A DNA stretch of 64,000 bases from Sulfurovum lithotrophicum (GTDB lineage Bacteria > Campylobacterota > Campylobacteria > Campylobacterales > Sulfurovaceae). Where the stretch lies: assembly GCF_000987835.1 (NCBI RefSeq), contig NZ_CP011308.1, positions 1,612,001-1,676,000 on the forward strand, read 5' to 3'. The notes below the pieces were generated by a model. It saw only the letters and a program-made list of their open reading frames with translations, had not been told where the DNA came from and did no database searches. Positions 44,897 to 59,120 of the stretch are shown piece after piece (the stretch's first letter is position 1; every line of letters begins with the position of its first letter). Position numbers and translations under genes: made by a program.

Positions 44897-46039
44897 TTGT
44901 ATAAATACTTCCCATACAAAACCATGAACCATCATGAGATCCTGCTTTATGGTTTTCACTTTAGTTTTCTCTTTATCTTTATCCTCGCAGTGATCAGAGA
45001 TCTTCTCTTTGGAAACTACTTTAATGCCAGTATCAACTTCAGTGCCTTGGTTACGACTGCATTTAGCTACTATCTTTTACACTTCTGGTCCAAAAAAGAG
45101 CTTGCAAGCTATCTCATCATCGCTATAGCAGTCATCCCTCTTTATATCCTGATCTACTTTAACCACTTTGGCAACATGGTCATCATTTATGTTATTTTGC
45201 TCCCTCTAGCAACATTTTTTCTCATCCCTTTCAAAAAAGCACTCATTATCAACGGGTTTATCTATATACTGCTCATCGGTATATTGTACTATCTCTCTAT
45301 CGCACAACCTGAAACACCGATCATCAACAACCCTTTAGCCTTGATCAACATCGCTTTTGTCTCCATGCTCACTGTCTTTTTTGGTATCTTTTATCATCTG
45401 GCGATAGAATCTACGCTCTCCAGTCTTATCTACTCAAACAGCCAAAAAGACATCCTGCTTTGTGAAGTACACCATCGTGTCAAGAACAACCTCAATGTCG
45501 CCGCATCCATGCTGGGTCTACAAGCCCTACAGGAGTCTTCAGAGCTTCAACCTCACATACTCAAAAGCAAATCACGCATCGAAGCCATAGCCACGGTTCA
45601 TGAAATGCTCTACCGACAGGAGAGTTTTGACAAGGTACGCTTTTATGACTATGTCCTACGGCTTGAAAAACTCTTGGGGAAAGCCTACAAACACGATAAT
45701 ACCTATCAGTTTAACCTCAATGTAGACAGAGACCTTGCACTACCGCTGGATACTATGGTACAGCTGGGTCTAATACTCAATGAGATGATCACAAACTCAC
45801 TCAAATATGCCAAAAACCCACAAGGTCTGCAGATAGATATCTCTATGACCCAAACCTCAGAAGGCTATCTCTTCAACTATAAAGATAATGGCATAGAGTA
45901 CCTTGATACAGATCAAATGACCCAGCAAAAAGGTCTGGGCATGAGACTCATAGAACTCAGTACTCAACAGATAGAGGGTAGATTAGAGATATACTATATG
46001 AACGGATTATCTTATATCATAAGGATGGAAGATGCATAA
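44897..46039 (+). CDS. sensor histidine kinase, multi-helix membrane sensor and HisKA_2-type kinase
   Basis: 380 residues from a TTG start preceded by AGAAGG. The first ~165 residues hold about six membrane helices with short loops and no large periplasmic domain. The kinase part reads VHHRVKNNLNVAASMLGLQ (His near 192), KSKSRIEAIATVHEMLY, LNEMITNSLKYA and GLGMRLIEL. It is closely similar to the kinase domain of the divergent gene at 43207-44763. The response regulator gene overlaps its last eight bases. Confidence 0.93.
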   Translation: MYKYFPYKTMNHHEILLYGFHFSFLFIFILAVIRDLLFGNYFNASINFSALVTTAFSYYLLHFWSKKELASYLIIAIAVIPLYILIYFNHFGNMVIIYVILLPLATFFLIPFKKALIINGFIYILLIGILYYLSIAQPETPIINNPLALINIAFVSMLTVFFGIFYHLAIESTLSSLIYSNSQKDILLCEVHHRVKNNLNVAASMLGLQALQESSELQPHILKSKSRIEAIATVHEMLYRQESFDKVRFYDYVLRLEKLLGKAYKHDNTYQFNLNVDRDLALPLDTMVQLGLILNEMITNSLKYAKNPQGLQIDISMTQTSEGYLFNYKDNGIEYLDTDQMTQQKGLGMRLIELSTQQIEGRLEIYYMNGLSYIIRMEDA

Positions 46040-46733
46040 AATTGTAATCGTAGAAGATGAACTCATCGCTGCAGAGTACCTCAAACAAGTACTTCAGAAC
46101 AATCACTTTGAAGTACTTGCTGTCATAGACAAAGGAGAAAGGGCACTCAGGCGTATCCCCAAGCTCAATCCTGATATCGTACTGATGGATATTATGCTAA
46201 AAGACCACATCAGCGGCAGTGAAGTAGCCCTCTCACTCAAACACACTGCTCCGGATATCGCAGTGATCTTCCTCACTGCATACAGTGACGATGAGATGAT
46301 AGACTATGCGGTTGAGTCTAACAGTTACGGCTACATGATCAAACCGTATGACGAGACCAATATCCTCACCACACTCAAGATCACACTGGCACGCCTCAAA
46401 GAGAACAAACAGGAAAATACAGTACAAATGACCCAAAAAAAAAGATCCTCTGTCTATATCACGAAGTATCTCTATTTTGACATGGAGAAGAAACGGCTCT
46501 TTCAGCATAACAAAGAATTACCCCTAGGCAGTAAGTCTCTGGCGATACTTGAAACACTCTGCAAGCAGCCCAATGTCACGGTCTCGTCAGAACAACTCTC
46601 TCTGGCCGTTTGGGATGAGCCTAAAGAGAATAGAATGCTCCGTACACAAATTTCAAGACTCAAAAAAGAGATAGATGCTGATATCATCCAAAATGTCAAA
46701 GGTCTGGGATACAAAATTGTTTGTGAGGTCTAA
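46032..46733 (+). CDS. response regulator, receiver plus OmpR-type winged helix
   Basis: 233 residues. The receiver has the acidic pocket VEDELIAAEYL, phospho-acceptor Asp in IVLMDIMLKDH (about residue 52), IFLTAYSD and the Lys in YMIKPYDE. A ~20-residue linker containing an A9 run (46435-46443) leads to a winged helix (LPLGSKSLAILETL, LRTQISRLKKEID, IQNVKGLGYKI), so it should bind DNA. It is the partner of the kinase it overlaps. Its targets are unknown; the envelope genes that follow are candidates. Confidence 0.93.
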   Translation: MHKIVIVEDELIAAEYLKQVLQNNHFEVLAVIDKGERALRRIPKLNPDIVLMDIMLKDHISGSEVALSLKHTAPDIAVIFLTAYSDDEMIDYAVESNSYGYMIKPYDETNILTTLKITLARLKENKQENTVQMTQKKRSSVYITKYLYFDMEKKRLFQHNKELPLGSKSLAILETLCKQPNVTVSSEQLSLAVWDEPKENRMLRTQISRLKKEIDADIIQNVKGLGYKIVCEV

Positions 46734-46740
46734 AGGCTTT

Positions 46741-47679
46741 TTACTTCTTTGAATTTCGGATATGCATATTTGCTTCCTTAAGAAGCTCAGATATGACTGT
46801 TTGCATACTTCGTGACTCCTTATCTTTTACTGCCCATCCATTACTTTTTGTCATCATTGTTTCAGCCGTGTATATTTTTTTGTCTGACTCTATAATAAGT
46901 TGTATATGCTTTGTCCGTTTCACTGGAGCCAAAGAGAGTGTCAATATGAACATAAAAGCATTACCGGCATCGGTATCCCATCTACCTTCAATTAAAGTGA
47001 TCGAAAGAGGCTTTTTAAATGTATGTTCCTTTAACGCTTTCAAGAGATATCTCTGAACTAACTTGGCGTCTTCTTTGGTACCGCTTTTAGTTTTATAGAT
47101 AAAATTCAAAGATTTTGTTTTAAATGTATAGGTGGTATAGGCAGACTGATTGCTATCTGATACTTTATCTCTTTTTTGCTTACTCGTTCTCCTGTAATCT
47201 TTTGCATGAAAACTGATCTTTTTGATAAAGTATGGCAGTGTCTTTTTAAAAGATTCAGAGTTTATCAGTGCCAATACCTCTTGATTATTGGCATGTACTT
47301 TTTTTAATGGCACCAGTGAACGAGAAAGGCTCTTCCATTCGCTTTTTGTCTGTAACATACCTACTCTCCAACCATGACACTTTTCACATTTTTTCTGATT
47401 GAGATAGGCTATCTGCTCCTCTGTATTATTGGCGAAGAAATCTACATAGTCAGATACCTCATCTTTACTGTAGCTGTCACTCTGAATATACTTGACTACA
47501 TCCAGATTATTTTTATGTATCTCTTTGAGTGCTTCTCCACCATCCATCATCAAATGTTTCCACTCCTTCTTAGACTTCAAATGTGAAAGTTGTATTTTCC
47601 CCTTATGACATGAGCTACAATACTCACCACTTGATGCGATCAGGACCACAGGTAACATTAACAGATAAACCAGTTTCAT
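46741..47679 (-). CDS. periplasmic c-type cytochrome with two CxxCH motifs
   Basis: 312 residues with a signal peptide (LVYLLMLPVVLIASSG). Two heme-binding motifs are present: CSSCH at residues 21-25 and CEKCH near residue 99. Each is followed by a similar helical stretch (SKKEWKHLMMDGG and TKSEWKSLSRSLV), so the N-terminal half is a duplicated mini-cytochrome. The C-terminal ~130 residues (KSLNFIYKTKSGTKEDAKL onward) form an alpha/beta domain I do not recognise. It probably carries electrons in the periplasm. Confidence 0.8.
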   Translation of the reverse strand: MKLVYLLMLPVVLIASSGEYCSSCHKGKIQLSHLKSKKEWKHLMMDGGEALKEIHKNNLDVVKYIQSDSYSKDEVSDYVDFFANNTEEQIAYLNQKKCEKCHGWRVGMLQTKSEWKSLSRSLVPLKKVHANNQEVLALINSESFKKTLPYFIKKISFHAKDYRRTSKQKRDKVSDSNQSAYTTYTFKTKSLNFIYKTKSGTKEDAKLVQRYLLKALKEHTFKKPLSITLIEGRWDTDAGNAFMFILTLSLAPVKRTKHIQLIIESDKKIYTAETMMTKSNGWAVKDKESRSMQTVISELLKEANMHIRNSKK

Positions 47680-47710
47680 TTTTTCTCCTTTTTTATATAT
47701 CTACAACTTA

Positions 47711-49699
47711 CTACCATGAACTACCGCTGCCTCCGCCAGCACCACCAAAAGAACTACTTCCAGAAGAACTTCCCGTGCTATTACTTGACAACCCCATAAC
47801 TCCCGTGTTGCTACTGTTTATGTGGTTTCGTAGCATATCACTGCGCAGCAGAGACTTCATCAACGTATTACATTTCTGTTTGGCTAAAGGTATGTTCATG
47901 ATATCATACATCTTCAACCAGTGTATCACCTGACCAAAAAGGATCGCATAAGGAAGCATCTTCTCCATATAGTCAGGATCCTCTTTCAGTCTTCTTTCTA
48001 TCTCATCCTCTTTCACAGATTTTAGAAATATCTCCAAGCCCTTAAGCTCTCTGAGAATATCTGTACCTTTTTGCGTATAGCATCCCAACTTCCACATAAA
48101 CGTTATAGAGAAGATGATTAGAAGTACCATCACTGTGATATAACTGCTTACAACATCCATCACCCCCATACCGTTTTGCCTTGGAAACATCCCAAGCTCC
48201 ATCAGCACAGCCCATATACCTATACCTGCAAATAAAAGTGCTATTTTCACCCTAGAAGAGAGATTGAAAAAAAAGACCACGATCCAGGGCAACAAAGCAC
48301 TAAAAACACAAAAGACTATATAGCTCACCTCTTCTCCTCCATAGTCTGTGTTCATAGCAATCACGACAGAGAAAACAAAGATCGGGACAAATACTGCAAA
48401 TATTATTCGGATACTTCGTTGTCTTATTTTTCTGAGATCTCCTACTGTATAGCCTTGTTTTTTTGCCCAGCCATACAATGCGTTATAGATAGCGGATATT
48501 TTTGTAAAAAGTGTATGATATTCTGAAACAGTAGCCTTCTTTGGAGAGAAGTATGCTTTGCTGTCAAACAGTGCATCGAGTAGTTGCCACTGGTCATCAC
48601 TAAGTGATCCTCTCTCCTTGGCTACCCTTCGAAGTATGATATCCTCACTTTCCTCTTCTATCTCTATATACCCAAGGTATGCGAGTTCCAGTATCGCAGC
48701 ATAAAGATCATCTTCATCAAGGTTTTTATCAAAAAGCAGCCCCATTTGGAATACTGAAAGGTTCCGAGGGGCATTATAACGAACCATAATACTTCTGGTA
48801 TCTTTTTTGAGTCCCAGAGCATCTCTTTTCAGCCATACGAGACCCAACAACAGCAAAAATACTATCCAGCTCCACACTCCAAACTCTTCCCTTCTCTCCT
48901 CTCGAAAGATCCTCTCTTTTACAAGCTTGTCCCTGTATGCTTCATCTGCCTTCTTCTCTTCTTCCCTTTTTTGAGCCAACGCTTCAAGATGCCTCCTGCC
49001 CTTTTCTATCTTCAATACTGTATCCTGCCCTAGCACACCTCTGGGAAATACTATCTTCACGGAAGCTCTCTTTTGATTGGCGTTGATCTGCAAGTAATGT
49101 TCATCTATCCATATATACTCATCAGACTTTGCAGGAGAGACAACGACTAGGTTGTTTTTATGAAGCTTTGAGGGCAAGAAAAGGTTTACTTCTGTCTGCA
49201 AGACAGGTACTCTCCATCCATCCCCTACTGCATTCCAGTGCAACTGATCTTTATCGGCTTGAAAGGATGAAGGCATAATGGCATTACGACAACGATACTG
49301 TATGGTATAGTGTCTTTGATCCGATACTCTTTTATCTTTTGAACCGATTTTGATAAAAATGACTTCTTTACCTGAAGAGCTGCTAAGCTTCTTCATCCAT
49401 GCTACCTCTTTCGCATCCATCGTGACTTCAAAATCTTCCAGCTGCACATCAACATCTACTCCCCACTTCACACCATTAACATCACCAAATGTATATGCGT
49501 GTGTAGGTATCTCTCTATAGATACCATGCTTTTGTGTCTCTTTAAAGTCATACAAGATAGACTCCGTCACCACAAACTCACCACTTGGCTCTAGTGTAAC
49601 ATTAACCTCAAAGTGTTCTATATGCTCAGCGAACAGACCCGTACCAAGAAATATCCAAAAGGTGAAAATAAGATTCCGAATCAAATTGGGTGACTGCAT
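47711..49699 (-). CDS. DUF2207 family membrane protein
   Basis: 662 residues. A signal sequence is followed by a ~230-residue extracellular domain (HFEVNVTLEPSGEFVVTESI, KHGIYREIP) typical of DUF2207. A membrane helix at about 276-292 precedes a cytoplasmic winged-helix-like part, then several helices (about 445-545). The C-terminus is low-complexity Ser/Gly ending SSFGGAGGGSGSSW, a tail shared by many DUF2207 and TPM proteins. Function is unknown. The Hcp-like gene ends 13 bases upstream, suggesting one operon. Confidence 0.87.
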   Translation of the reverse strand: MQSPNLIRNLIFTFWIFLGTGLFAEHIEHFEVNVTLEPSGEFVVTESILYDFKETQKHGIYREIPTHAYTFGDVNGVKWGVDVDVQLEDFEVTMDAKEVAWMKKLSSSSGKEVIFIKIGSKDKRVSDQRHYTIQYRCRNAIMPSSFQADKDQLHWNAVGDGWRVPVLQTEVNLFLPSKLHKNNLVVVSPAKSDEYIWIDEHYLQINANQKRASVKIVFPRGVLGQDTVLKIEKGRRHLEALAQKREEEKKADEAYRDKLVKERIFREERREEFGVWSWIVFLLLLGLVWLKRDALGLKKDTRSIMVRYNAPRNLSVFQMGLLFDKNLDEDDLYAAILELAYLGYIEIEEESEDIILRRVAKERGSLSDDQWQLLDALFDSKAYFSPKKATVSEYHTLFTKISAIYNALYGWAKKQGYTVGDLRKIRQRSIRIIFAVFVPIFVFSVVIAMNTDYGGEEVSYIVFCVFSALLPWIVVFFFNLSSRVKIALLFAGIGIWAVLMELGMFPRQNGMGVMDVVSSYITVMVLLIIFSITFMWKLGCYTQKGTDILRELKGLEIFLKSVKEDEIERRLKEDPDYMEKMLPYAILFGQVIHWLKMYDIMNIPLAKQKCNTLMKSLLRSDMLRNHINSSNTGVMGLSSNSTGSSSGSSSFGGAGGGSGSSW

Positions 49700-49712
49700 C
49701 TTACTCTTCCCA

Positions 49713-50639
49713 TCACTGCCCCTTTATCAACCTATAGTTCCGGCACGATGGCTCATATCCACTCTCACACGCTTTTTTGAACAGAGACAACGCTTTGGGT
49801 ACATCTACTTTAAGAGAAATACCTGTGTAATAGAGCAGTGCAAGATTGTACTGTCCCTGAGGATCACCATAGTCACTGGCTATACGGTAGTAGGGTACAG
49901 CCTTGGCATAACTTCTTTTTACACCCAACCCTTTTTCATACATAAAGCCCAGATTTGAACACCCTTGCGGGTAGGCACAGTTGCAAGCTTTTTCATACAG
50001 AGTGATCGCCTTTTGGTAGTCTTTTGTCAGTCCGTTTCCATACTGATACATGACACCCAAGTTACTGCACGCCACCATATCTCCGCCACTACACCCCTTA
50101 ACATAAGGCTCAATGGCTTTTTGATAGTTACGAACCCTACTTGACCCTTGATGGTAAAAAACACCTAGGTTTCGACACCCTATAGAGAGGTTATGGTCAC
50201 AGGCTAGTTTAGCAAGTCTGATAGCCCGCACCTCATCCTTTTTTACCCCATTACCATTGCTATACATCAGTGCAAGGTTACTACACCCGGGATAACTCTT
50301 CTGCTTACACCCTTTGGCAAAAAAATACGCTGCTCTCTTCATATGTTTCTTGATACCCGCGTTACCCTCATAAAATATCAGACCAAGATCCGTACACCCA
50401 TCTGCATAACCAAGCATACAGGACTTAGCACACAGCTCTGCAGCATTCAGATACTCTTTTTTGACTTTGGCACTGCTCTGAAAGTGTATAGCAAGCTCAT
50501 AACAACCCTTAGAATCATTGTTCTCGCAAGCGATCTTATTTGCCTCAACGCTATCAGCAGAGAGTAGTAGTGGAGCTATCATCAGAAGAAAAAACAGTAC
50601 CTGTTTCATCATTAACATAACTACCAACCATTTTTTCAT
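49713..50639 (-). CDS. secreted Sel1-repeat, cysteine-rich protein (Hcp-like)
   Basis: 308 residues with a signal peptide (VLFFLLMIAPLLLSA). The mature part is a series of 36-residue Sel1 repeats, each with a pair of cysteines eight residues apart (for example CAKSCMLGYADGCTDLG and CKQKSYPGCSNLALMYSNG). This matches Helicobacter cysteine-rich proteins (Hcp), which are disulfide-pinned solenoids in the periplasm or medium. Some bind beta-lactams, but their true role is unclear. It precedes the DUF2207 gene. Confidence 0.88.
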   Translation of the reverse strand: MKKWLVVMLMMKQVLFFLLMIAPLLLSADSVEANKIACENNDSKGCYELAIHFQSSAKVKKEYLNAAELCAKSCMLGYADGCTDLGLIFYEGNAGIKKHMKRAAYFFAKGCKQKSYPGCSNLALMYSNGNGVKKDEVRAIRLAKLACDHNLSIGCRNLGVFYHQGSSRVRNYQKAIEPYVKGCSGGDMVACSNLGVMYQYGNGLTKDYQKAITLYEKACNCAYPQGCSNLGFMYEKGLGVKRSYAKAVPYYRIASDYGDPQGQYNLALLYYTGISLKVDVPKALSLFKKACESGYEPSCRNYRLIKGQ

Positions 50640-50730
50640 CTTCTTCTCTCCTTTTATCTACCTACTTGAGGTGCCATCCTAGATAATCATTCTATCTATC
50701 TTATAAACATATCAAGATACTTCCTCTCAC

Positions 50731-51201
50731 TCACAGACTACCTACATAGCTCAATTTTACTTCATTTGTACCCTCTTTAAAAAAGAGTACCAACGATGCA
50801 GGAAGCCCTTGACTGGATGATTTTTTTGCGATCCAAAGCTTATACTCCACACCCTTATCATACGTCCCTACACTTGGATGCCCTATCTCTGTGGTTTTCA
50901 GCTTCTGTATACATGTTACTTTGACAGGGTAGGCATAATGTTTTGCATTACTCTGTGCTTTTTTAAACTGATATCGATAGGTATCACTGTCCAGACTTGC
51001 CTTATCCCTATTCAGAAGAGACTTATGCATCAGTTGCACTACCATTTTGGCACTCTTCTCATAACTGTTGTTTTGCATCGTTTGGATAAAAATATTTATG
51101 ATCTCTATGGCTTGTTTTTCCAATGTTTTTGGCATGCTATCTCCTGCATTCACACTCATTGCCAATAATGCCCAGACTAACATATATTTAACACTATTCA
51201 T
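50731..51201 (-). CDS. secreted protein of unknown function
   Basis: I use the ATG at 51201 (MNSVKYMLVWALLAMSVNAG), which gives a signal peptide; the ATG at 51279 adds 26 unlikely residues. The 156-residue protein has a helical start (LEKQAIEIINIFIQTMQNNS) and ends in beta strands (LPASLVLFFKEGTNEVKLSY). No family recognised. It lies in a run of minus-strand secreted proteins. Confidence 0.65.
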   Translation of the reverse strand: MNSVKYMLVWALLAMSVNAGDSMPKTLEKQAIEIINIFIQTMQNNSYEKSAKMVVQLMHKSLLNRDKASLDSDTYRYQFKKAQSNAKHYAYPVKVTCIQKLKTTEIGHPSVGTYDKGVEYKLWIAKKSSSQGLPASLVLFFKEGTNEVKLSYVGSL

Positions 51202-51313
51202 TTCATTTTCTTTTTTTTGATAAAGTTCTTTCAGTTGATGTGAGCTGCCAAAATGTACTCTGTGCACAGCGTGATACAAATGAAAATAAAAAACCTAATA
51301 GATACTTCATGAA

Positions 51314-52099
51314 TCACTCCTCTCTGACAATTATCTCTTCAAACACAAGATCATTCATCTTCACCCAGTACCTAAAATCTCTCTTTTTGCCTCTATAAAG
51401 TACTTTGATCCATGTATGTCCTTCACTACTCACCATATCCAGAACTTTACTGATCTTATCACCTTGAATGAGATAACTTTTGAGTCTTTTACCGTCCCAA
51501 CCGTCATAAAAGTAGGCTTTCTTGACTTTGACCTTCACATTATGGGCGCTATAATCTGTTAGCATATTACCTTCTTCTTCATCTGGCCACGAAGTACTGG
51601 CACTTAAAAACAGAAATGCTCTTCCCTCTTTATCTATCTGATAATAGTCATGAAAATACCCCGTACCACTCTTCATCGGTGCATGCAGTACCTCTGTATT
51701 GCCTATAATAGTCAGGTTGGACACATTGCTAAAGTATTTATGAAACTGAGCCTTTTTAGGATCATAAAAATAGTAATCAGCAAAGACATTGAGTCCACCA
51801 TAACCAACACCTACAATTACGCCGATATCGGCATACCCATCAAAGTTAAGATCTTCAAAAAACAAACTCTCAGAGATATCAGAGACAAATTTCTTATAGT
51901 CCATAAAGTCTTCAGAGATATCAGGCAACACAATCCGCTTCTTGCCTATCTCTACAGCTATATGTTGTGTATCCCAGTTTACATATGCAGTGGCTTTTTT
52001 ATCTTTGGTAAGGTTGAAGTCATATGCTGTAGTATTTATATCACTACCAGCATACACCATACTCACAAGAAATAAAACACTCAAAAATAACTTTTTCAT
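51314..52099 (-). CDS. secreted protein with a calcium-binding-like repeat (XAC2610/FG-GAP-like)
   Basis: Start at 52099 (MKKLFLSVLFLVSMVYAG), whose A is shared with the TGA of the upstream gene; the ATG at 52111 is four codons longer. The 261-residue protein has a signal peptide and LFFEDLNFDGYADIGVIVG, a DxNxDGxxD loop found in VCBS/FG-GAP and XAC2610-like proteins. The C-terminal SSEGHTWIKVLYRGKKRDF looks like a small SH3-type module. Function unknown. Translation is coupled to the upstream gene. Confidence 0.7.
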   Translation of the reverse strand: MKKLFLSVLFLVSMVYAGSDINTTAYDFNLTKDKKATAYVNWDTQHIAVEIGKKRIVLPDISEDFMDYKKFVSDISESLFFEDLNFDGYADIGVIVGVGYGGLNVFADYYFYDPKKAQFHKYFSNVSNLTIIGNTEVLHAPMKSGTGYFHDYYQIDKEGRAFLFLSASTSWPDEEEGNMLTDYSAHNVKVKVKKAYFYDGWDGKRLKSYLIQGDKISKVLDMVSSEGHTWIKVLYRGKKRDFRYWVKMNDLVFEEIIVREE

Positions 52100-52542
52100 C
52101 AGTGTATACACCCCATATAGACAGTGGTACGCTTCACGTAGGCATCTGGTACATAGTGTCGTATACGATTAAGAAGGCTTTTATCCACCTTCTCACCACT
52201 TGCTGCTACTACAATGTAATACCCTTTGGTAAATTCCTCATACGCATCAGAGGGCTCTACACTCAGATAGACACCATCATCATACCTCCCTCTGGCAATA
52301 TAACAGGGATACGCATAGCCATTTTCATCACACTCTGCACGGGGATGCGAGATCATGATCTCTTCATTGTACTTCAAAGCTCTCAGATCAAGCCTCACCC
52401 CACTCTTTTTTGCCAACTTTTGAGCAAACTCTTTTGCTTCACTATAGCTTTTTGTAGACTTAACGATAAATATTGACTTGATAACACTCTGCTGGGCGAT
52501 CATATCTTCCACACCATACAGCTGACCAAAAGAGAGTACCAT
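52099..52542 (-). CDS. secreted protein of unknown function, start codon uncertain (AUA?)
   Basis: From the first ATG (52542) the protein has 147 residues. The frame is open further up, and MKRIWKIWIAMVLSFGQLYG would be a proper signal peptide if the ATA at 52572 were the start; AAGGAG lies six bases before that ATA. The mature part has a SPOR-like feel (SIFIVKSTKSYSEAKEFAQK) and a cysteine pair in CDENGYAYPC. No family recognised. The stop overlaps the next gene's ATG (TGATG). Confidence 0.65.
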   Translation of the reverse strand: MVLSFGQLYGVEDMIAQQSVIKSIFIVKSTKSYSEAKEFAQKLAKKSGVRLDLRALKYNEEIMISHPRAECDENGYAYPCYIARGRYDDGVYLSVEPSDAYEEFTKGYYIVVAASGEKVDKSLLNRIRHYVPDAYVKRTTVYMGCIH

Positions 52543-52584
52543 TGCTATCCATATCTTCCAAATTCGTTTTATCTCACACTCCTT

Positions 52585-52688
52585 TTATAACTTTGACTCA
52601 GAATTCCGACATCTATCAAAAGCAGCCTTCCGATAAAATAGACCTTTGCTTCCGCACGCTCTTCGCCCCAGTAGAGCCCTATAGACAC
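52585..52688 (-). pseudogene. possible coding remnant between two secreted-protein genes
   Basis: A minus-strand frame, open from GTG at 52688 and further upstream, reads SIGLYWGEERAEAKVYFIGR and ends at TAA just before the AAGGAG of the next gene. The stretch is richer in GC than its surroundings and has a codon-like pattern, but no ribosome site precedes the GTG. It could be the 3' end of a lost gene. It fills the otherwise empty 52573-52726 gap. Confidence 0.35.
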
Positions 52689-52726
52689 AGTATCTGTCTC
52701 ATTTGAACCCGAATTATAAAGTAAAA

Positions 52727-52993
52727 TCAATACCCGCTTAAGCTTCTTGAAGCATTGCCGTTTTCATCATAACACTTACCACTGTTTGAGTGACATTTTG
52801 AAGAAGAAGATTTGATATTACCACAGTTTCCCTCTTGGTTATCACAGATCTTTTTTGCTTCTTTTCTAGCACTTGAACTGTCACCTGCTACACAAACACC
52901 TACACCGCTTTTGTCTGAAAAAGTAAAACATTTAGCCTCTGCTCCTGCACCCATTGCCAACACCAAAAGTGTTCCTACTACGATATGTTTCAT
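52727..52993 (-). CDS. small secreted cysteine-rich protein
   Basis: 88 residues. A signal peptide (VGTLLVLAMGAGAEA, cleavage near 20) is followed by a 68-residue mature peptide with six cysteines and many Ser, Lys and Asn (CFTFSDKSGVGVCVAG, CDNQEGNCGN, CHSNSGKCYDENG). Six cysteines suggest three disulfides. No family recognised. An AAAAGGA site precedes the ATG, so expression is credible despite its size. Confidence 0.65.
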   Translation of the reverse strand: MKHIVVGTLLVLAMGAGAEAKCFTFSDKSGVGVCVAGDSSSARKEAKKICDNQEGNCGNIKSSSSKCHSNSGKCYDENGNASRSLSGY

Positions 52994-53056
52994 TTAAATC
53001 CTTTTTTATTTAGATACATATATTATAGACTCAAAGTGTGTCATAAACGTATCACA

Positions 53057-53695
53057 CTACTTTTTAGGTTTTTTACTGAAACACCGCATCAATGCAGCAC
53101 GCGTAGAAGATTCATCCGGGTATTTTCCAAAATGTTTTTTACCGTTACTCTGGCACGATGAGATACTGCGTTCACAAGAGTAGTACTGCTTTTCATCTTT
53201 ACTCCCGTAGCAGATATAATTACCCTGTTTTACCTCATCAGGACAGGCTATTTTTTTTCCTTCTATCCATACTTTTTCATCTTTTGGACGAAGATCAAGC
53301 AGTGTCACAGGACCACCCAAACCATTGCCATAGTCTCTTACTTCACTGTAATTGACAAACTCAAGCATCAAACGATTTTTCTTATCCAGCCATACTTGAC
53401 CCGAATCACACTCACCGCTACAGTAGTATCTTCCTTTCTCTGCTTCACAGTCAAGATGATGATTTTGATATATTTTTCCTGCTGCTTTTACTGCCACTCC
53501 AACATAATTTTGAAAATTCTTTTTCCTAATCTTAGGAAGCTTTACCACGTAAACTGCCTCTATAGACTTCACTGAAGATTTACTCTCACCAGATGCTATA
53601 AAGTGTTGTGGATCATAACTATAACACTGCAGTTCTTCTGCATAAAGCACCCCTATCATCATACCTATCCATAAAAATACGATAAAATTTTTCAC
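53057..53695 (-). CDS. secreted cysteine-containing protein of unknown function
   Basis: 212 residues with a signal peptide (FIVFLWIGMMIGVLYAE). The mature part contains several Cys pairs (HLDCEAEKGRYYCSGECDSG, CPDEVKQGNYICYGS, YYSCERSISSCQ), so it is probably disulfide-bonded in the periplasm. Strands dominate the first half. No family recognised. It follows the 5'-nucleotidase-like gene after ten bases and is likely co-transcribed with it. Confidence 0.65.
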   Translation of the reverse strand: MKNFIVFLWIGMMIGVLYAEELQCYSYDPQHFIASGESKSSVKSIEAVYVVKLPKIRKKNFQNYVGVAVKAAGKIYQNHHLDCEAEKGRYYCSGECDSGQVWLDKKNRLMLEFVNYSEVRDYGNGLGGPVTLLDLRPKDEKVWIEGKKIACPDEVKQGNYICYGSKDEKQYYSCERSISSCQSNGKKHFGKYPDESSTRAALMRCFSKKPKK

Positions 53696-53705
53696 CTTTT
53701 ACTCC

Positions 53706-55283
53706 TCAATGCACGATCTCTAAACGTCCATCTTCAGGCTTTGGACTCAACACCTTATGTACTTCAATGAACTCTGCCATGATAGAGTAAAATGTCGTGT
53801 AGGTGTTTTTAAGCTCCGTACCATACTTTTTGAACCAGTAGTACCCGTCTCCCTCATGTTTGACAATAAAAGAGTTGCTCAGTACCGTATACTCTTTTTG
53901 TGGATCTACATCGACCCATTTTTCACCTTGAAGTACTTTGATCTCTTCTACCCTTGTACCGGGTTTGATGACCTTAGCATCCTCTATTTTCTGTACATTT
54001 CCAGGAAGATTGATACGGTACTTCAGCCCTGAGACATGCATCAGACCTCCCTCACCGTAACTTGCTGCACTTCTTTCGAGTATCTCTTTGAGGTATTTTC
54101 CTTTGAGCTTCAAGATGTAGGCATAGTTGCCAAACTCATCGATGGATTTGAGCATCTCATCGGTGATATTTCCTGCTTTGTAGACCTTTTTACCTCTAAA
54201 TGCCCCAGCATTGTTCAGTACGATATCTACCTTGAACTTCTCTCGCATAAGATCGTTGACAAGGTTCGCTACGGTTGACTCACCTTTACGTACTGCGTCA
54301 GAACCAAGGTTCCATGAGGTTTCCGTCTTTCCAAGCACAACAGCTTCGGGAAAACCTTCTTCATACTTTTTAACCTTTGCCATGATAGCCTTATCTGCTC
54401 TGTTGGTAGCAGGTACAGACACTTTGGTCATCTTCATCTCTTTGCTTAGGACTTTGAGGTTTTCATCCAACGGGATATCCACTTTGATGATCTGTACGCC
54501 CTGCTCTCCCCCATTGACAATAGAGGTACCACGGATACGTCCCATCTTTTCAACATACTCATGAGAGTGTCCACCAAAGATAAGGTCTATACCCTTAACC
54601 TGTTTTGCCAGTGCAACATCTTTTTTGTACCCTATATGTGAAAGCAGTACGATCACATGCACACCTTCACCTTTGAGCGTTTTGACCATCTTCTTTGCCG
54701 TAGTGACATTGTCCGCAGTGATCTTCACATTTCTCTCACTGGTGACCAGTGGCAGATCTTCTGTCATCGCAGAGAAAAATCCTACTTTCACCCCATCCAT
54801 CTCTTTGATAAGGTATGGTGTACATTTCCCCTTCAGTGCAGAGTTTGAGACATCCAGATCACTACATATCACCTTGAATTTCATACCATCCAAGGCCGTA
54901 GAGAGCACCTTGCTTCCTTTATCAAACTCATGATTTCCCAAAACATAGAGATCATACCCGGCATCAGACATCAGGGAGAATATCGCTTCTCCTTTATAGA
55001 TATGAAAAAACTTATTCATCAGGTCGTCCCCTGCGGAAACAACGACTGTATTTGGGTTCTCTTCTTTCAGTTGTTTATAGGCAGTAGCGAGGTTGGCTAT
55101 ACCACCCATCATCACCTCTTCTTTTTTCCCATCTCCATCAAGATCAAACTTTTGCATAGAAGGACTCATCATCCCCTGCAGATCCGCTGTACCTATGATG
55201 CTTACCATCTTCTGCTCTGCCAGTAAAGCAGAGGAAAACAACATTACACATAAAGAAACTATAAACTCTTTTTTTATCTTCAT
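53706..55283 (-). CDS. 5'-nucleotidase/UshA-like metallophosphoesterase
   Basis: 525 residues with a signal peptide (cleavage near 22). The metallophosphatase domain shows VVVSAGDDL, YVLGNHEFDKG, VIVLLSHIGYK and LIFGGHSHEY. The usual first motif D-x-H-G reads ADLQG, so a metal-ligand His is replaced by Gln. An EF-hand-like DLDGDGKKEE follows. The C-terminal 5'-nucleotidase domain has NLVNDLMREKF, VLNNAGAFRGKK and YTVLSNSFIVKHEGDGYYWF with the substrate-stacking aromatics. It probably hydrolyses nucleotides in the periplasm. Confidence 0.9.
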   Translation of the reverse strand: MKIKKEFIVSLCVMLFSSALLAEQKMVSIIGTADLQGMMSPSMQKFDLDGDGKKEEVMMGGIANLATAYKQLKEENPNTVVVSAGDDLMNKFFHIYKGEAIFSLMSDAGYDLYVLGNHEFDKGSKVLSTALDGMKFKVICSDLDVSNSALKGKCTPYLIKEMDGVKVGFFSAMTEDLPLVTSERNVKITADNVTTAKKMVKTLKGEGVHVIVLLSHIGYKKDVALAKQVKGIDLIFGGHSHEYVEKMGRIRGTSIVNGGEQGVQIIKVDIPLDENLKVLSKEMKMTKVSVPATNRADKAIMAKVKKYEEGFPEAVVLGKTETSWNLGSDAVRKGESTVANLVNDLMREKFKVDIVLNNAGAFRGKKVYKAGNITDEMLKSIDEFGNYAYILKLKGKYLKEILERSAASYGEGGLMHVSGLKYRINLPGNVQKIEDAKVIKPGTRVEEIKVLQGEKWVDVDPQKEYTVLSNSFIVKHEGDGYYWFKKYGTELKNTYTTFYSIMAEFIEVHKVLSPKPEDGRLEIVH

Positions 55284-55303
55284 GACATCCCTCCTTGCTA
55301 TAT

Positions 55304-56740
55304 TTACGACTCTCTTGGTGGAGGTGTTGCATCACTGCGCAGTGGTGGTGTTGCCTCCCCTTGCTGAGCTTCTTCTCTCTCCTCCTTACGCGGGGGAGGC
55401 GTTGCACTGCTCTGTCCTGATGGTGGTGTTGCCTCTCTTGCAGTATGAGCCTCTGCACTGTTTTGCGTTGCTTTGTTTTTCTTTCCAAACTTAGCCATTG
55501 CTATAGCAATACCTACACCTACACCGATAATAGCCAGTGAAAGCAGTGGTCTGGAACCAAACCAAGCCAATGCGATAACGATAGACCCAAGGATCAAAGT
55601 CAACACACCCGCAATGATGCTTGTCACACCACCTACCAAAGAACCCAACATCGGTATCACCTTAGCCAGTGTTGCGATGATCCCCATCATCATAGTAAAG
55701 GCAATATACATCAACACCAGACCAACCCCTCTGAGTATCCACGTCAGAACACTGTTTGCATCCAGCTCCTCTTTGAAGATCGTAACTGCCTCTACTTTTC
55801 CGTTGCGGGTAAAGACAAATGACTTGCCATTTTCTGTGACATACGGTACCAGCTTTTTACCTTCTTCTTTTGCTGCGTAAGTGTACTCACCTGCTGGTGC
55901 ATAAGTGTATGTGATCTTGATATCACCTATCTGTGGACCATGCATTCCAGTCTGCGTTCCTGTTTGGGTTATGCTGTGTGTGTTCAGACTGACCTGTGAC
56001 ATCTGTATACCTGTATGTGTCTGAGGTACATAAAACTGTGTTGGAATATAGAGATAGCTCTTCTTATTATAAGCATCACCGATACGTTCAGGCATACTGT
56101 TAAGCCCTGCATAACTTTGAGATGCACCCAGACGGAACACCATGTTTCTGTCTAGATAAAACTCTCCCAGCATCGCATCCGTACCAAAACTCTCACTTTT
56201 GTAATTCATAGATGGATTCTGGTGATTTTCCCGTACTTTGAAAAAAGTGGAATCTATCGAAGAGGAAGACCATACCTTCACATAGTTATAGGTTGTGATG
56301 GTCTCCGTACCTCCGCCAAGCTTATCTTTGGTCTCCGTACTCTTGTTCTCCTGCCACTGATACATCTCTACATGACGTCGTAATAAAAGCCCATCTGTTT
56401 TAACACCGAACTGAGGATCGACTACTTCACTGAGGGGTTTGACATACCCCTGTACAAGTACCGCTTTGCCATCCAACGCAGCATCAAACTTTGGTTCAGG
56501 AAGTTTGGTAATCTTTTCCTGCATCTCTTTAAGTGCAGTAGCCTGTTCGACACTTCTACCTTCATTCCACCATAAAAGTACAATAGAACCGATCAGCAGC
56601 AATATCCCTACAAAGATACCCTTAAATGAGTTACCTATATTTTGTCCATAGCTTGTGTATGTTGTCTCCGTAAATGTATCATTGCCAAAACTGTTACTGC
56701 TGTTACTACTACCAAAATTTTTGTTGAAATTAAATTTCAT
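55304..56740 (-). CDS. TMEM43-family membrane protein with Thr/Pro-rich repeat tail
   Basis: 478 residues. A Ser/Asn-rich start leads to a membrane helix (about 41-60) and WWNEGRSVEQATALKEM, the TMEM43 hallmark. A large extracytoplasmic domain (about 80-320) and three or four C-terminal helices (about 335-410) complete the family layout. The last ~60 residues are a charged tail with four ATPP units, encoded by palindromic DNA (see 55333-55400). TMEM43 homologues are linked to membrane organisation; the bacterial role is unknown. A broken AIM24 gene lies just upstream. Confidence 0.85.
   Translation of the reverse strand: MKFNFNKNFGSSNSSNSFGNDTFTETTYTSYGQNIGNSFKGIFVGILLLIGSIVLLWWNEGRSVEQATALKEMQEKITKLPEPKFDAALDGKAVLVQGYVKPLSEVVDPQFGVKTDGLLLRRHVEMYQWQENKSTETKDKLGGGTETITTYNYVKVWSSSSIDSTFFKVRENHQNPSMNYKSESFGTDAMLGEFYLDRNMVFRLGASQSYAGLNSMPERIGDAYNKKSYLYIPTQFYVPQTHTGIQMSQVSLNTHSITQTGTQTGMHGPQIGDIKITYTYAPAGEYTYAAKEEGKKLVPYVTENGKSFVFTRNGKVEAVTIFKEELDANSVLTWILRGVGLVLMYIAFTMMMGIIATLAKVIPMLGSLVGGVTSIIAGVLTLILGSIVIALAWFGSRPLLSLAIIGVGVGIAIAMAKFGKKNKATQNSAEAHTAREATPPSGQSSATPPPRKEEREEAQQGEATPPLRSDATPPPRES
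55333..55400. repeat. palindromic repeat cluster inside the TMEM43-like coding tail
   Basis: CACTGCGCAGTG (55333-55344) is a perfect palindrome. GCCTCCCC (55353-55360) and GGGGAGGC (55393-55400) are perfect complements. GGTGTTGC-like units recur through 55314-55440 and encode the ATPP tail repeats. The pattern resembles REP-type palindromes that have been taken into a reading frame. Confidence 0.6.
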
Positions 56741-56751
56741 CTTTTCTCCTT

Positions 56752-57169
56752 TTAGTTAAATCTGTCACCCATAGCAAGGTCACCAAGCATACCAAGTGCC
56801 GAGCCTTCACCTTTGTCACTGCCGCCATACTGAGGTGCCGCTGAGAGCATACGTCCTGCCAGCCTGGAGAATGGCAACGACTGTATCCATATTTTTCCAG
56901 GACCTCTAAGTTTGGCGAAGAAGAATCCCTCTCCACCAAAGAGCCCGGTTTTTATACCGCCTGCCTGTTCTATCTCAAACTCTATATGCGGCTCCATTGC
57001 CACAAGACATCCAGTATCGAGGTGAGACACTTCTCCTTCTACCAAGTCTACCTCTTTAAGCATACCTCCAGCATGTATAAAGGCCATGCCATCACCTTCA
57101 AGCTTCTACTGTGCTTACAGGACCATACTTTGTGCCGTTATCATATTCTAAAAACCACTGTACACTCAT
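56752..57169 (-). pseudogene. AIM24 (TIGR00266) gene with an internal deletion, GYF-like start retained
   Basis: A good AGGAG site and ATG at 57169 open a frame reading MSVQWFLEYDNGTKYGPVST, a GYF_2-like beginning, but it stops at TGA (57098). A second frame then runs from EGDGMAFIHAGG to GDRFN and is the C-terminal part of AIM24/TIGR00266 proteins (VSHLDTGCLVAMEPHIEFEI, GLFGGEGFFFAKLRGPGKIW). Intact relatives have about 230 residues or more, so the middle is missing and the frames no longer match. The 111-residue C-terminal piece could still be made from ATG 57087. Confidence 0.75.
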
Positions 57170-57195
57170 TGTATTTCTCCTTTAAAACTTTATGA

Positions 57196-58551
57196 TTAAA
57201 ATTTATTTTTAGCTAAAAACTTTTTTGCACTTGCAGAACCACTCTTTGCAGCTTTCGTAATCCACTGCTTGGCTTTTTTTCTATCTTTTTTGACACCTTC
57301 ACCATAATAATACATTGCACCTATATTATATTGTGATTGAGAGTGCCCTTGTTTTGCTGCTTTTGTATACCATTTTGCTGCTTTTGCAAAATCTTTTTTA
57401 CCACCTTTGCCACCATCATAAAGAAGTGCCAAATTTGATTGTGCTTCAACATAACCTTGCTGTGCAGATTTTTTATACCATTTTCTTGCCAGTACATAAT
57501 CTTTTTTTGTACCTTTGCCATATTCATACATGTAACCCAAATTATTTTGAGCCATAGCATGTCCTTGTTTAGCAGCTTTAGTAAGTAAGGTAAATGCCCC
57601 TTTATAATTTTCCACTTTAACATAAAGTGTTCCAAGCTCAAACTGTGATGGCGCATAATTTTGCTTAATAGCTTTCATAAACCATCGTTCTGCTGCAATA
57701 TAATCTTGTTTAACTTCACGACCACCCATGTAAATGAGACCCAAATTATGTTGCGCATACTTATTACCTTGATTTGCAGATTTTAGATAAAGTTCTATAG
57801 CATATTTTGTATTTTTTGCATATCCACCTTCAGCATTATCATACATATAGCCCAGTTTAAGCTGTGCACCGGCATGCCCTTGATTCGCAGCTTTAGTGTA
57901 CCATTGTCCCGCTTCTTTAAGATCTTTTTTCACATCTTCACCATAATAATATTTTTGACCCATAAGATATTGTGCATCAACATATCCCAATACTCCAGCC
58001 TCTGTAAACCATAGTAATGCCGAAGTGATATCTTTGTCAACACCTAAACCATTCTCATACATGGATCCTAAGTTATATTTTGCAACAGCAGATCCTTTTT
58101 TAGATGCTTCTGAAAATAATGCTATTGCTTTTTTATAATCTTTATCAACACCTAACCCATCCCTATACAGAAGTGCTAAATTATTGATAGCATTCAAATG
58201 CCCTTGATTTGCTGCTTTTTCATATAATTTTATTGCTTTACTATAATTCTGTGGTACTCCCTGACCCTCATCATACATTACACCTAAATTATACTGTGCA
58301 TATTTAGATCCATTGTTTGCAGCCTTTGTATACCAAACAGATGCCATACGAGCATCTGCTGCAAGTCCTTTACCAAAATAATACATATGTCCCATTAATT
58401 CTTGGGCACCCAAATTTCCTTTATCTGCTAAAGGTTTTAGAATTGCCATAGCAACCTTGTAATCTCCACTCACATAAGCTGATTCACCTTCCTTATATGT
58501 TCCTGCATATATACTACTTATTAACATAATACCAATCAATATATACTTCAT
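57196..58551 (-). CDS. secreted Sel1-repeat protein
   Basis: 451 residues with a signal peptide (LIGIMLISSIYAG, cleavage near 17). Almost the whole mature protein is about a dozen 36-residue Sel1 repeats of the form A-x-YNLGxMYxxGxGVxKDxxKAxxWYTKAAxQG. Unlike the Hcp-like gene at 49713 the repeats lack cysteine pairs. Such solenoids bind other proteins. The DNA is AT-rich and internally repetitive, so copy number may vary between strains. It has its own upstream region of about 200 bases containing nothing recognisable. Confidence 0.88.
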   Translation of the reverse strand: MKYILIGIMLISSIYAGTYKEGESAYVSGDYKVAMAILKPLADKGNLGAQELMGHMYYFGKGLAADARMASVWYTKAANNGSKYAQYNLGVMYDEGQGVPQNYSKAIKLYEKAANQGHLNAINNLALLYRDGLGVDKDYKKAIALFSEASKKGSAVAKYNLGSMYENGLGVDKDITSALLWFTEAGVLGYVDAQYLMGQKYYYGEDVKKDLKEAGQWYTKAANQGHAGAQLKLGYMYDNAEGGYAKNTKYAIELYLKSANQGNKYAQHNLGLIYMGGREVKQDYIAAERWFMKAIKQNYAPSQFELGTLYVKVENYKGAFTLLTKAAKQGHAMAQNNLGYMYEYGKGTKKDYVLARKWYKKSAQQGYVEAQSNLALLYDGGKGGKKDFAKAAKWYTKAAKQGHSQSQYNIGAMYYYGEGVKKDRKKAKQWITKAAKSGSASAKKFLAKNKF

Positions 58552-58771
58552 GTTCTTCCTTTAAACTAATATATAACTATTATAATAATTATGTGTGTCA
58601 AAAACGTGTCAAACAGATAAGGTGGTATTTAAGTTTCGATAAATAATGCAGTAGATCTTCTTAAAAAAGTAGATGATTTTGAATAATTTTCATTGTTTGG
58701 CATGTAGCTTAAATAGCATTTAGCGCCTAGATATAGGGATTATTATTAATTATGTTAAGAGATGAAATAGT

Positions 58772-59120
58772 AGTCAGGTGCAACGATAAGCCGGGTTTTG
58801 TCGTTGGGTAGTTATTTATCTAGGCGTATAGTTGCCCATACGCTCAAGCGAAGTATGAGTGCCGACTGAACGGCTTGTGAGACTTATACCATATACTTCT
58901 TGCTGCGGACAGGGTTTACCTGGCTGAGCGTGTTACCATGCTCACCGGTGGGCTCTTACCCCACCCTTTCACCCTTACCAGGCTAAGCCTGGCGGTTTAC
59001 TTTCTGTTGCACTTGCCCTCAGATTACTCTGGCCATCCGTTAGATGGAGTCCTGTCTCACCTGCAGCCCGGACTTTCCTCTCGTGACACAAATGTCACCA
59101 GCAACTACCTGTTGCACCTG
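58772..59120 (-). ncRNA. rnpB: RNase P RNA, bacterial class A
   Basis: On the minus strand the sequence begins CCAGGTGCAAC, which pairs with GTTGCACCTG at the 3' end (helix P1). Near the start it has GAGGAAAGTCCGGGCT, the conserved P4/CR-I region. In the middle it has AGGGTGAAAGGGTGGGGTAA followed by GAGCCCACCGG, and near the end ACAAAACCCGGCTTATCG. These are the universal RNase P RNA blocks in the correct order, over about 350 bases. With its protein subunit it matures tRNA 5' ends. The exact ends are estimated from P1 and the promoter. Confidence 0.93.

Follow-up and report, generated by a model that had tools for sequence, protein, structure and literature searches.

Several described systems resemble, in part, the gene cluster reported here. 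Human TMEM43 crosses the membrane four times, according to the available part of PMC7889174. Xanthomonas XAC2610 is an immunity protein that inhibits a peptidoglycan-degrading effector of glycoside hydrolase family 19 (GH19) and adopts a beta-propeller fold like those of Tsi1 and PliI (PMC10933484, in the portion available). In the YdjGHI-PspA system of Bacillus subtilis, membrane proteins anchor a soluble assembly (PMC8581546, likewise an excerpt). For bacterial TMEM43, a literature search of limited depth returned no assigned role. Here, we analyze a TMEM43-containing gene cluster of Sulfurovum lithotrophicum, whose genome is a single contig (NZ_CP011308.1) of 2,217,891 bases. The window, the whole 64,000-nucleotide stretch that was analyzed, spans positions 1,612,001-1,676,000, and the cluster occupies window positions 46741-58551 as 12 successive minus-strand open reading frames (ORFs), G1 to G12 (Table 1). 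We propose that it is one copy of a recurrent, modular, TMEM43-based envelope island that combines docking of a cytoplasmic partner, protection of the cell wall and dedicated regulation, a reading whose likelihood, with all of these parts included, we place somewhat short of even.

A first-pass annotation of the stretch, made from the sequence alone, had suggested that the position of these genes next to a two-component system reflects a shared envelope function, with repeated capture of small genes as the alternative. Across 150 sampled genomes of the same family (three-digit G numbers denote genomes, and L numbers denote fetched loci), the neighborhood recurs: TMEM43 is found with AIM24, with homologs of G1, G5, G6, G7 and G8, and with Sel1 proteins, a 5'-nucleotidase and a two-component system. 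A full run is present in a Sulfurovum metagenome-assembled genome (L050), which encodes on one strand an ABC ATPase, a GYF_2-AIM24 fusion, TMEM43, G6, G5, G7, a 259-residue protein, G1 and a Sel1 protein; this locus was found by its TMEM43 pattern, and none of its cargo had been a query. Subsets of the run occur elsewhere. In G084, where TMEM43 is divided between two contig ends, AIM24, TMEM43, G6, G7, other ORFs and G5 are followed by the regulator and kinase, which converge on the cluster just as they do in the window. In G126, Sel1, an AIM24 remnant and TMEM43 are followed by only an N-terminal part of the kinase. G1 is the last gene of the G050 island, which spans two contigs, and a G8 homolog is the last in that of G106. 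G072, from another genus, has the regulator and kinase divergent from a group that includes a 5'-nucleotidase, an LprI protein, TMEM43 and G5; G8 and a Sel1 protein are encoded there on the opposite strand. A second island type, represented by another copy at 855 kb on the S. lithotrophicum chromosome and by G033, G110 and G118, carries other exported proteins, and cargo sets differ from one another across the islands compared. Because islands recur in this way, the clustering reflects more than chance or mere small-gene capture; because a conserved core is joined to exported cargo that is gained and lost between islands, both of the earlier alternatives are partly true. One of the two conditions that the first-pass annotation set for its refutation, a lack of recurrent association elsewhere, is contradicted. 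Gene order shows a conserved core accompanied by interchangeable exported cargo and by a linked two-component system. As a separate observation, the AIM24-TMEM43 pair of G033 (L029 6661-15277) is flanked by duplicates of the exported families F5, F13, F41 and F42.

TMEM43 is present in 22 of the 150 family genomes (21 over cut-off) and is rare in the phylum, where 10 of 397 sampled genomes have a match, nine of them over cut-off and eight of those nine in this family. AIM24 is likewise found in 22 family genomes, 21 over cut-off. The two adjoin in 11 of the 21 TMEM43 genomes, in both gene orders: AIM24 precedes TMEM43 in all eight same-genus genomes with an over-cut-off TMEM43, and follows it in all three g8 genomes having TMEM43. 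With the weak AIM24 hit of G105 dropped, GYF_2-AIM24 occurs in 16 genomes, 15 of them with TMEM43, and AIM24 without a GYF_2 match occurs in five, one of them with TMEM43; among the five, the G068 protein begins too near a contig end to tell. GYF_2 on its own was considered as the link to TMEM43 and rejected, as 76 of the 150 genomes carry this domain, usually on ~360-residue proteins other than AIM24. It is the AIM24 fusion, not GYF_2 generally, that tracks TMEM43. Four such GYF_2 proteins (L203, L204, L206 and L212), none of which contains PPxR, have the N-terminus MGLF[DE]WIGGQFIDVIEW, which looks YdjI/SPFH-like.

The AIM24 gene of the window had been described as a remnant. It is indeed partial, and is better described as a GYF_2-AIM24 gene with an internal deletion that has kept its 5' end. 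Measured against the intact paralog on the same chromosome (L028), about 614 bp are missing; the retained 5' fragment aligns to the first 60 nucleotides of the intact copy, and G11 does not span a full-length AIM24 domain (Table 1). The intact paralog, at 855 kb, encodes 344 residues scoring 42.9 bits for GYF_2 and 234 bits for AIM24, within the 230-244 bits that AIM24 scores across the sample's 14 intact GYF_2-AIM24 copies, and a second TMEM43 gene directly follows it. The ratio of nonsynonymous to synonymous substitution rates (dN/dS) between the remnant and its relatives is 0.03-0.05 (five of six pairs computable), as it is among intact copies (six of 15 computable); because synonymous sites are saturated and the values resemble those of intact copies, this ratio decides neither for a recent deletion nor for a retained fragment. 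In the TMEM43 tree, nine of 20 inner branches are starred; the window protein pairs with that of G126 (94/82, not starred), and the second S. lithotrophicum copy is placed apart, with G033, on a starred branch.

A short motif connects the two core proteins. The C-terminal tails of TMEM43 proteins end in repeats such as TPPPR. The distribution of the motif was counted in 589 distinct, overlap-thinned ORF translations of at least 100 residues, drawn from 44 sources that comprise the window and fetched loci of the family, with families assigned by BLAST and the L029 pair lost to the overlap rule. A strict pattern, [TS]PPxR with limited x, matches 20 of the 589, namely 16 TMEM43 and four GYF_2-AIM24 proteins. 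The loose pattern PPxR matches 16 of 23 TMEM43, 12 of 16 AIM24 and three of 550 other ORFs, one of the seven motif-less TMEM43 proteins being cut at a contig end; an earlier, pattern-based count gave 16 of 22, 12 of 16 and three of 551. PPxR lies directly behind GYF_2 in 13 of the 16 GYF_2-AIM24 proteins examined (a set without G021). Across the 21 genomes with an over-cut-off TMEM43 (G138 dropped), 14 of 15 with a PPxR-tailed TMEM43 also encode GYF_2-AIM24, compared to one of six with a tailless TMEM43 (Fisher p 0.0017, uncorrected for kinship). GYF domains bind proline-rich peptides. Among the papers listed by a literature search, none concerned binding by bacterial GYF_2 domains. Since PPxR marks both TMEM43 tails and the linker behind GYF_2 and is rare elsewhere, these sequences suggest that GYF_2-AIM24 docks on the TMEM43 tail.

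The predicted TMEM43 model (mean pLDDT, the predicted local distance difference test, of 72.6 from twelve sequences) comprises a transmembrane (TM) helix, a beta domain at ~93-313 (mostly above 85 except in a disordered insert, residues 236-266), three less confident helices (~53-90) and a disordered tail from ~430. Both the predicted model and hydropathy give four TM helices, the first of which is separated from the second by a large domain. Because basic residues follow the last helix, we infer that the tail is likely to be cytoplasmic. The fold has no Foldseek match at E 0.001, its best VIA match (Z 7.2, root-mean-square deviation (rmsd) 12.5 over 176 aligned residues) is uninformative, and no sequence relative was found among solved structures in the Protein Data Bank (PDB). 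We propose that TMEM43 acts as an inner-membrane scaffold, with one TM helix, a periplasm-facing beta domain, three TM helices and an unstructured, cytoplasmic PPxR tail. Cytoplasmic GYF_2-AIM24 would bind this tail through GYF_2 and cluster TMEM43 at the membrane, and the PPxR in its own linker would act as a competing intramolecular ligand. On the periplasmic side, the operon would provide exported XAC2610-type, Sel1/Hcp, cysteine-containing (G6-G8), nucleotidase and CxxCH proteins, some of which probably shield the cell wall from lytic enzymes. With the island's AIM24 broken by deletion, the intact protein encoded at 855 kb may serve both TMEM43 proteins. Within this scheme we infer, in falling order of support, that TMEM43 is a platform, that GYF_2-AIM24 docks on it, and that the cargo protects the wall. 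More tentatively still, TMEM43 and GYF_2-AIM24 may form a previously unreported bacterial membrane-organizing module, in which GYF_2 reads the PPxR of the tail in competition with its own linker, coupling cytoplasmic AIM24 to a periplasmic platform for exchangeable protective proteins.

The neighboring kinase and regulator probably control this set. At E 1e-40, the regulator has matches in 26 of the 150 genomes. Five of them reach at least 49% identity (S. lithotrophicum itself, G084, G072, G032 and G060), ahead of the following match at 46%. Each of these five has TMEM43, and in three the regulator gene lies next to the island. When the query genome is left out, the four closest all fall among the 20 TMEM43 genomes of the remaining 149, with a chance probability of 2.5e-4 that is uncorrected for kinship, three of the four being of one genus. 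A kinase homolog also lies beside the island in G084 (split over two frames) and G072, in addition to the G126 fragment.

The cargo families differ in how closely they follow TMEM43. Full-length G1 occurs in three of 150 genomes, all TMEM43-linked and all three seeds of the profile, and no unlinked full-length copy appeared; among the matches listed, the other 41 of its 44 matching genomes show no more than fragments of it, chiefly the CxxCH module, along with a C-terminal piece at a contig edge in G034. The G5 profile, seeded from the window and G072, finds 10 genomes, with strong unseeded matches in G084, which is TMEM43-linked, and in G035, G026 and G004, which have no intact TMEM43 beside them. 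G6, with the window protein as sole query, is found in six genomes, linked in G084 and unlinked in four others. G8 is found in 24 genomes; its strong unseeded matches, G019 and G045, are both unlinked, and most of the others match only a short C-terminal stretch. G4 is found in five, and none but the window copy is beside an intact TMEM43. In G026, which has no TMEM43 hit, we noticed G4, three Sel1 proteins and G5, followed by a short ORF (L198 8903-9157) that by eye resembles a TMEM43 N-terminus. DUF2207, which the first-pass annotation had grouped with TMEM43 and AIM24, is not supported as a core member: the family is carried by 81 of 150 genomes, compared to 22 for TMEM43, the other S. lithotrophicum copy is away from any island, and the links found are weak, such as that in G045, where G4 is followed by a DUF2207-like protein. 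The second S. lithotrophicum copy (1102800-1105300, ~1.10 Mb; L196 4828-7286) is, by eye, beside a LemA-like protein, apparently an ordinary setting for DUF2207.

Among the cargo proteins, G5 is newly assigned, on sequence, to the XAC2610 family: it scores 56.5 bits against NCBIfam NF047539 (XAC2610-related; cut-off 35) with no Pfam match, and five homologs (a set without G004) all exceed the cut-off, at 37.5, 44.7, 36.7, 45.6 and 54.5 bits. A search of solved structures gave no sequence relative for G5. The model obtained for G8 is poor (pLDDT 58.5) and bears a weak resemblance to eight-stranded barrels, its best VIA matches including PliC (Z 5.8, rmsd 3.2, 83 aligned), Neisseria ACP (Z 5.8, rmsd 3.0, 80 aligned) and Brucella PhiA (Z 5.2, rmsd 3.3, 78 aligned), all with Z below 8 and tied with unrelated barrels including lipocalins. 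We take Brucella PhiA to be a lysozyme inhibitor. G8 has no Pfam match at E 0.1 and no NCBIfam match at E 1, and G9 exceeds no NCBIfam equivalog cut-off, reaching 84 of 600 bits for UshA and 122 of 550 bits for SoxB. In Pfam scans of G4, G6 and G7 homologs and other cargo, nothing exceeded cut-off except the MORN_2 and LprI proteins of G072. A role in anti-phage defense was rejected: PADLOC, run on ten proteins (eight from the island, the intact AIM24 and the regulator; G3, G7 and G12 not included), returned only a weak match to the regulator through its receiver part.

The same cargo could be read as a store of periplasmic immunity proteins (XAC2610, LprI, Sel1 and small cysteine-containing proteins) directed against foreign effectors or lysozymes, with TMEM43 and AIM24 a mere frequent landing site. 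The family of G5, the LprI protein of G072, the weak G8 matches to PliC, Neisseria ACP and PhiA, and the variation of cargo between islands would all fit such a store. Yet the closest relatives of the regulator track TMEM43 and are not scattered, the G8 scores are equaled by lipocalins and other barrels, and no effector was recognized in domain scans of the cluster proteins, effectors and secretion systems not having been specifically searched; we consider this explanation unlikely, if still a serious one. An ordinary envelope-stress operon, in which the kinase and regulator induce unrelated exported proteins that form no physical complex, would account for the mostly tight gene spacing and the linked two-component system. 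It leaves unexplained both the PPxR common to TMEM43 tails and GYF_2-AIM24 linkers and the link between the GYF_2 fusion and the presence of TMEM43, and we think it distinctly unlikely. Least probable, in our judgment, is repeated capture of small exported genes with no functional unity: the varying cargo sets, the range in GC content across the cluster genes (0.34 to 0.49) and the occurrence of G4, G5, G6 and G8 families in genomes without TMEM43 are as expected from it, and the multi-gene recurrence in L050, G084 and G072 argues against it.

Several points weigh against a TMEM43-based island as we propose it. In ten of the 21 TMEM43 genomes, AIM24 does not adjoin TMEM43, and in five genomes with both (four g11, one g4) the two genes are on different contigs. 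AIM24 is dispensable at the locus, since it is broken in the window, by a different deletion of about 542 bp in G126, and by a frameshift, possibly an assembly error, in G084. Three g11 GYF_2-AIM24 linkers are proline-rich and lack the arginine, the GYF_2-AIM24 gene of G118 adjoins a tailless TMEM43, and G030 has the tail and no AIM24 hit. Motif and tail counts come from related genomes and represent few independent events, and kinship inflates every count. On the cargo side, the G1, G5 and G8 profiles were seeded from TMEM43 loci, the families of G4, G5, G6 and G8 are also found with no TMEM43 nearby, and the protective role draws on a sequence-level family (G5), an LprI protein in another genus and a weak fold match. 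Elsewhere, AIM24 is reported in ter clusters beside TerD, not TMEM43, by PMC5822837, whose accessible part also states that no prokaryotic role has been ascribed to it.

Outside the phylum, six plasmid records have a TMEM43 hit; the four examined are three from Roseobacter (two from one strain) and one from Methylobacterium. In the Roseobacter loci (L254, L255 and L257), several cysteine-containing proteins whose N-termini resemble signal peptides are encoded after TMEM43, one of them being DUF4453 in L254 and L257; the Methylobacterium TMEM43 is not followed by such proteins. No AIM24 is annotated in the 4-5 kb flanks of the plasmid TMEM43 genes, in a gene table that is incomplete, and eight distant TMEM43 loci (L061-L068) have no tblastn match to AIM24 at E 0.01. 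Because TMEM43 precedes exported cysteine-containing proteins in Roseobacter with no annotated AIM24 in its flanks, these loci suggest that TMEM43 with exported cargo extends beyond Sulfurovum and that the AIM24 partnership is not universal. Separately, a Pseudomonas nitroreducens plasmid (L253 5049-8388) carries an AIM24 protein two genes from a TerD-family gene, with, by eye, a GYF_2-like start and a proline-rich linker. A type VI secretion system paper listed under 'DUF124' was discarded, as it actually concerns DUF1240.

The order of transcription in the cluster runs from G12 to G1, that is, Sel1, AIM24 remnant, TMEM43, 5'-nucleotidase, G8, G7, G6, G5, G4, G3, G2 and G1. Gene spacing is widest ahead of G6 (184 bp), the AIM24 remnant (108 bp) and G3 (91 bp), and otherwise ranges from -13 to 63 bp. 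The first-pass picture of a dozen consecutive exported or membrane proteins holds for the run of genes and in part for export: a simple hydropathy scan flags eight of 12, G12 and G4 look exported by eye (G4 solely from an internal methionine), and the AIM24 remnant has no signal peptide. The families it named exceed curated Pfam cut-offs, namely the DUF2207 N and C domains, Sel1 in two proteins, Metallophos and 5_nucleotid_C, TMEM43 and the C-terminal part of AIM24; the duplicated motif in the last gene is present (G1 CxxCH at residues 21-25 and 98-102), and the adjacent two-component system is as described. Its four unknowns with cysteines are instead five unnamed ORFs, G4 to G8, among which cysteine-containing ones are present and G5, without cysteine, is the XAC2610-family protein. 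G6 appears to start at an ATA codon at 52572 with a well-placed AGGAG, from which alone a signal peptide is predicted; a start at ATG 52542 removes it, and no in-frame ATG, GTG or TTG lies upstream before a stop. Promoter and terminator scans gave shuffle-level counts (42 vs 44.4 expected and 7 vs 8.6 expected), and no operon limits were taken from them. A repeat search gave no sign of a mobile element. ORFs called across the RNase P RNA gene (58771-59120) are probably spurious.

Table 1. Features of the TMEM43 cluster and its surroundings, in window coordinates.
Feature	Position	Strand	Basis
G12: Sel1-repeat protein, 10 repeats, 451 aa, signal-peptide-like N-terminus	57196..58551	-	Pfam Sel1 303 bits
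GYF_2-AIM24 5' fragment: 23 codons, then stop created by deletion junction	57098..57169	-	Sequence; alignment to intact copy
G11: AIM24 C-terminal part, 111 aa	56752..57087	-	Pfam AIM24 profile 136-205 of 205
G10: TMEM43 protein, 478 aa, PPxR-repeat C-tail	55304..56740	-	Pfam 199.1 bits, cut-off 23.3
G9: predicted exported 5'-nucleotidase/UshA-type metallophosphoesterase	53706..55283	-	Pfam Metallophos + 5_nucleotid_C
G8: predicted exported protein, 212 aa, 9 Cys	53057..53695	-	
G7: small predicted exported protein, 88 aa, 6 Cys	52727..52993	-	Homologs in G084 and L050 islands
G6: predicted periplasmic protein, cysteine-containing	52099..52572	-	Homologs in G084 and L050 with signal-peptide-like starts
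G5: predicted exported XAC2610-related protein, no Cys	51314..52111	-	NCBIfam NF047539
G4: predicted exported protein, unnamed family, likely start internal Met 27	50731..51279	-	
G3: Sel1/Hcp-like predicted exported protein, 16 Cys	49713..50639	-	Pfam Sel1 140.8 bits
G2: DUF2207 membrane protein, glycine-rich end, second copy in genome	47711..49699	-	Pfam DUF2207 N + C domains
G1: predicted exported, two CxxCH modules and unnamed C-terminal domain	46741..47679	-	
OmpR-type response regulator, convergent with cluster, 7 bp apart	46032..46733	+	Pfam
HisKA_2 membrane histidine kinase, partner of regulator	44897..46039	+	Pfam
Second, related HisKA_2 sensor kinase, divergent from first; dCache match under cut-off	43207..44763	-	Pfam
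RNase P RNA gene, directly upstream of cluster; boundary, outside island	58771..59120	-	Rfam RF00010 286.5 bits

The pairing of a recurrent operon with a rare motif common to TMEM43 and AIM24 turns the question of their relationship into a direct binding test. If our proposal is correct, these islands would provide a simple model in which to study two families that also occur in eukaryotes: TMEM43, which is mutated in a heart disease, and AIM24, a mitochondrial inner-membrane protein. For XAC2610-type proteins, too, the context is new, as their neighbor is a proposed membrane scaffold and not an effector.

Compared to known systems, the island shares single elements with each. G5 and its homologs resemble the X-Tfi immunity protein XAC2610 of the Xanthomonas killing type IV secretion system in exceeding its NCBIfam cut-off; unlike the Xanthomonas case, no partner lysozyme-like effector was recognized among the scanned cluster proteins, and any inhibitory role for G5 is putative. 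G2 has both DUF2207 domains, and the island copy differs from the DUF2207-LemA arrangement in having no LemA-like neighbor. The proposed docking of AIM24 on TMEM43 is alike in outline to the anchoring of PspA by YdjGHI, with the differences that no PspA or YdjGH was recognized among the cluster proteins and that AIM24 is not an SPFH protein. Unlike AIM24/TIGR00266 (PF01987) proteins described elsewhere, those of the islands have an N-terminal GYF_2 domain, a proline-rich linker and TMEM43 rather than TerD as a neighbor, the window copy being a deletion remnant. Finally, the window protein belongs with TMEM43/LUMA (PF07787) in exceeding the Pfam cut-off and in the four TM segments of its predicted model, and it departs from the human protein in being bacterial, with many copies of the family carrying a PPxR C-terminal tail beside GYF_2-AIM24 and exported cargo.

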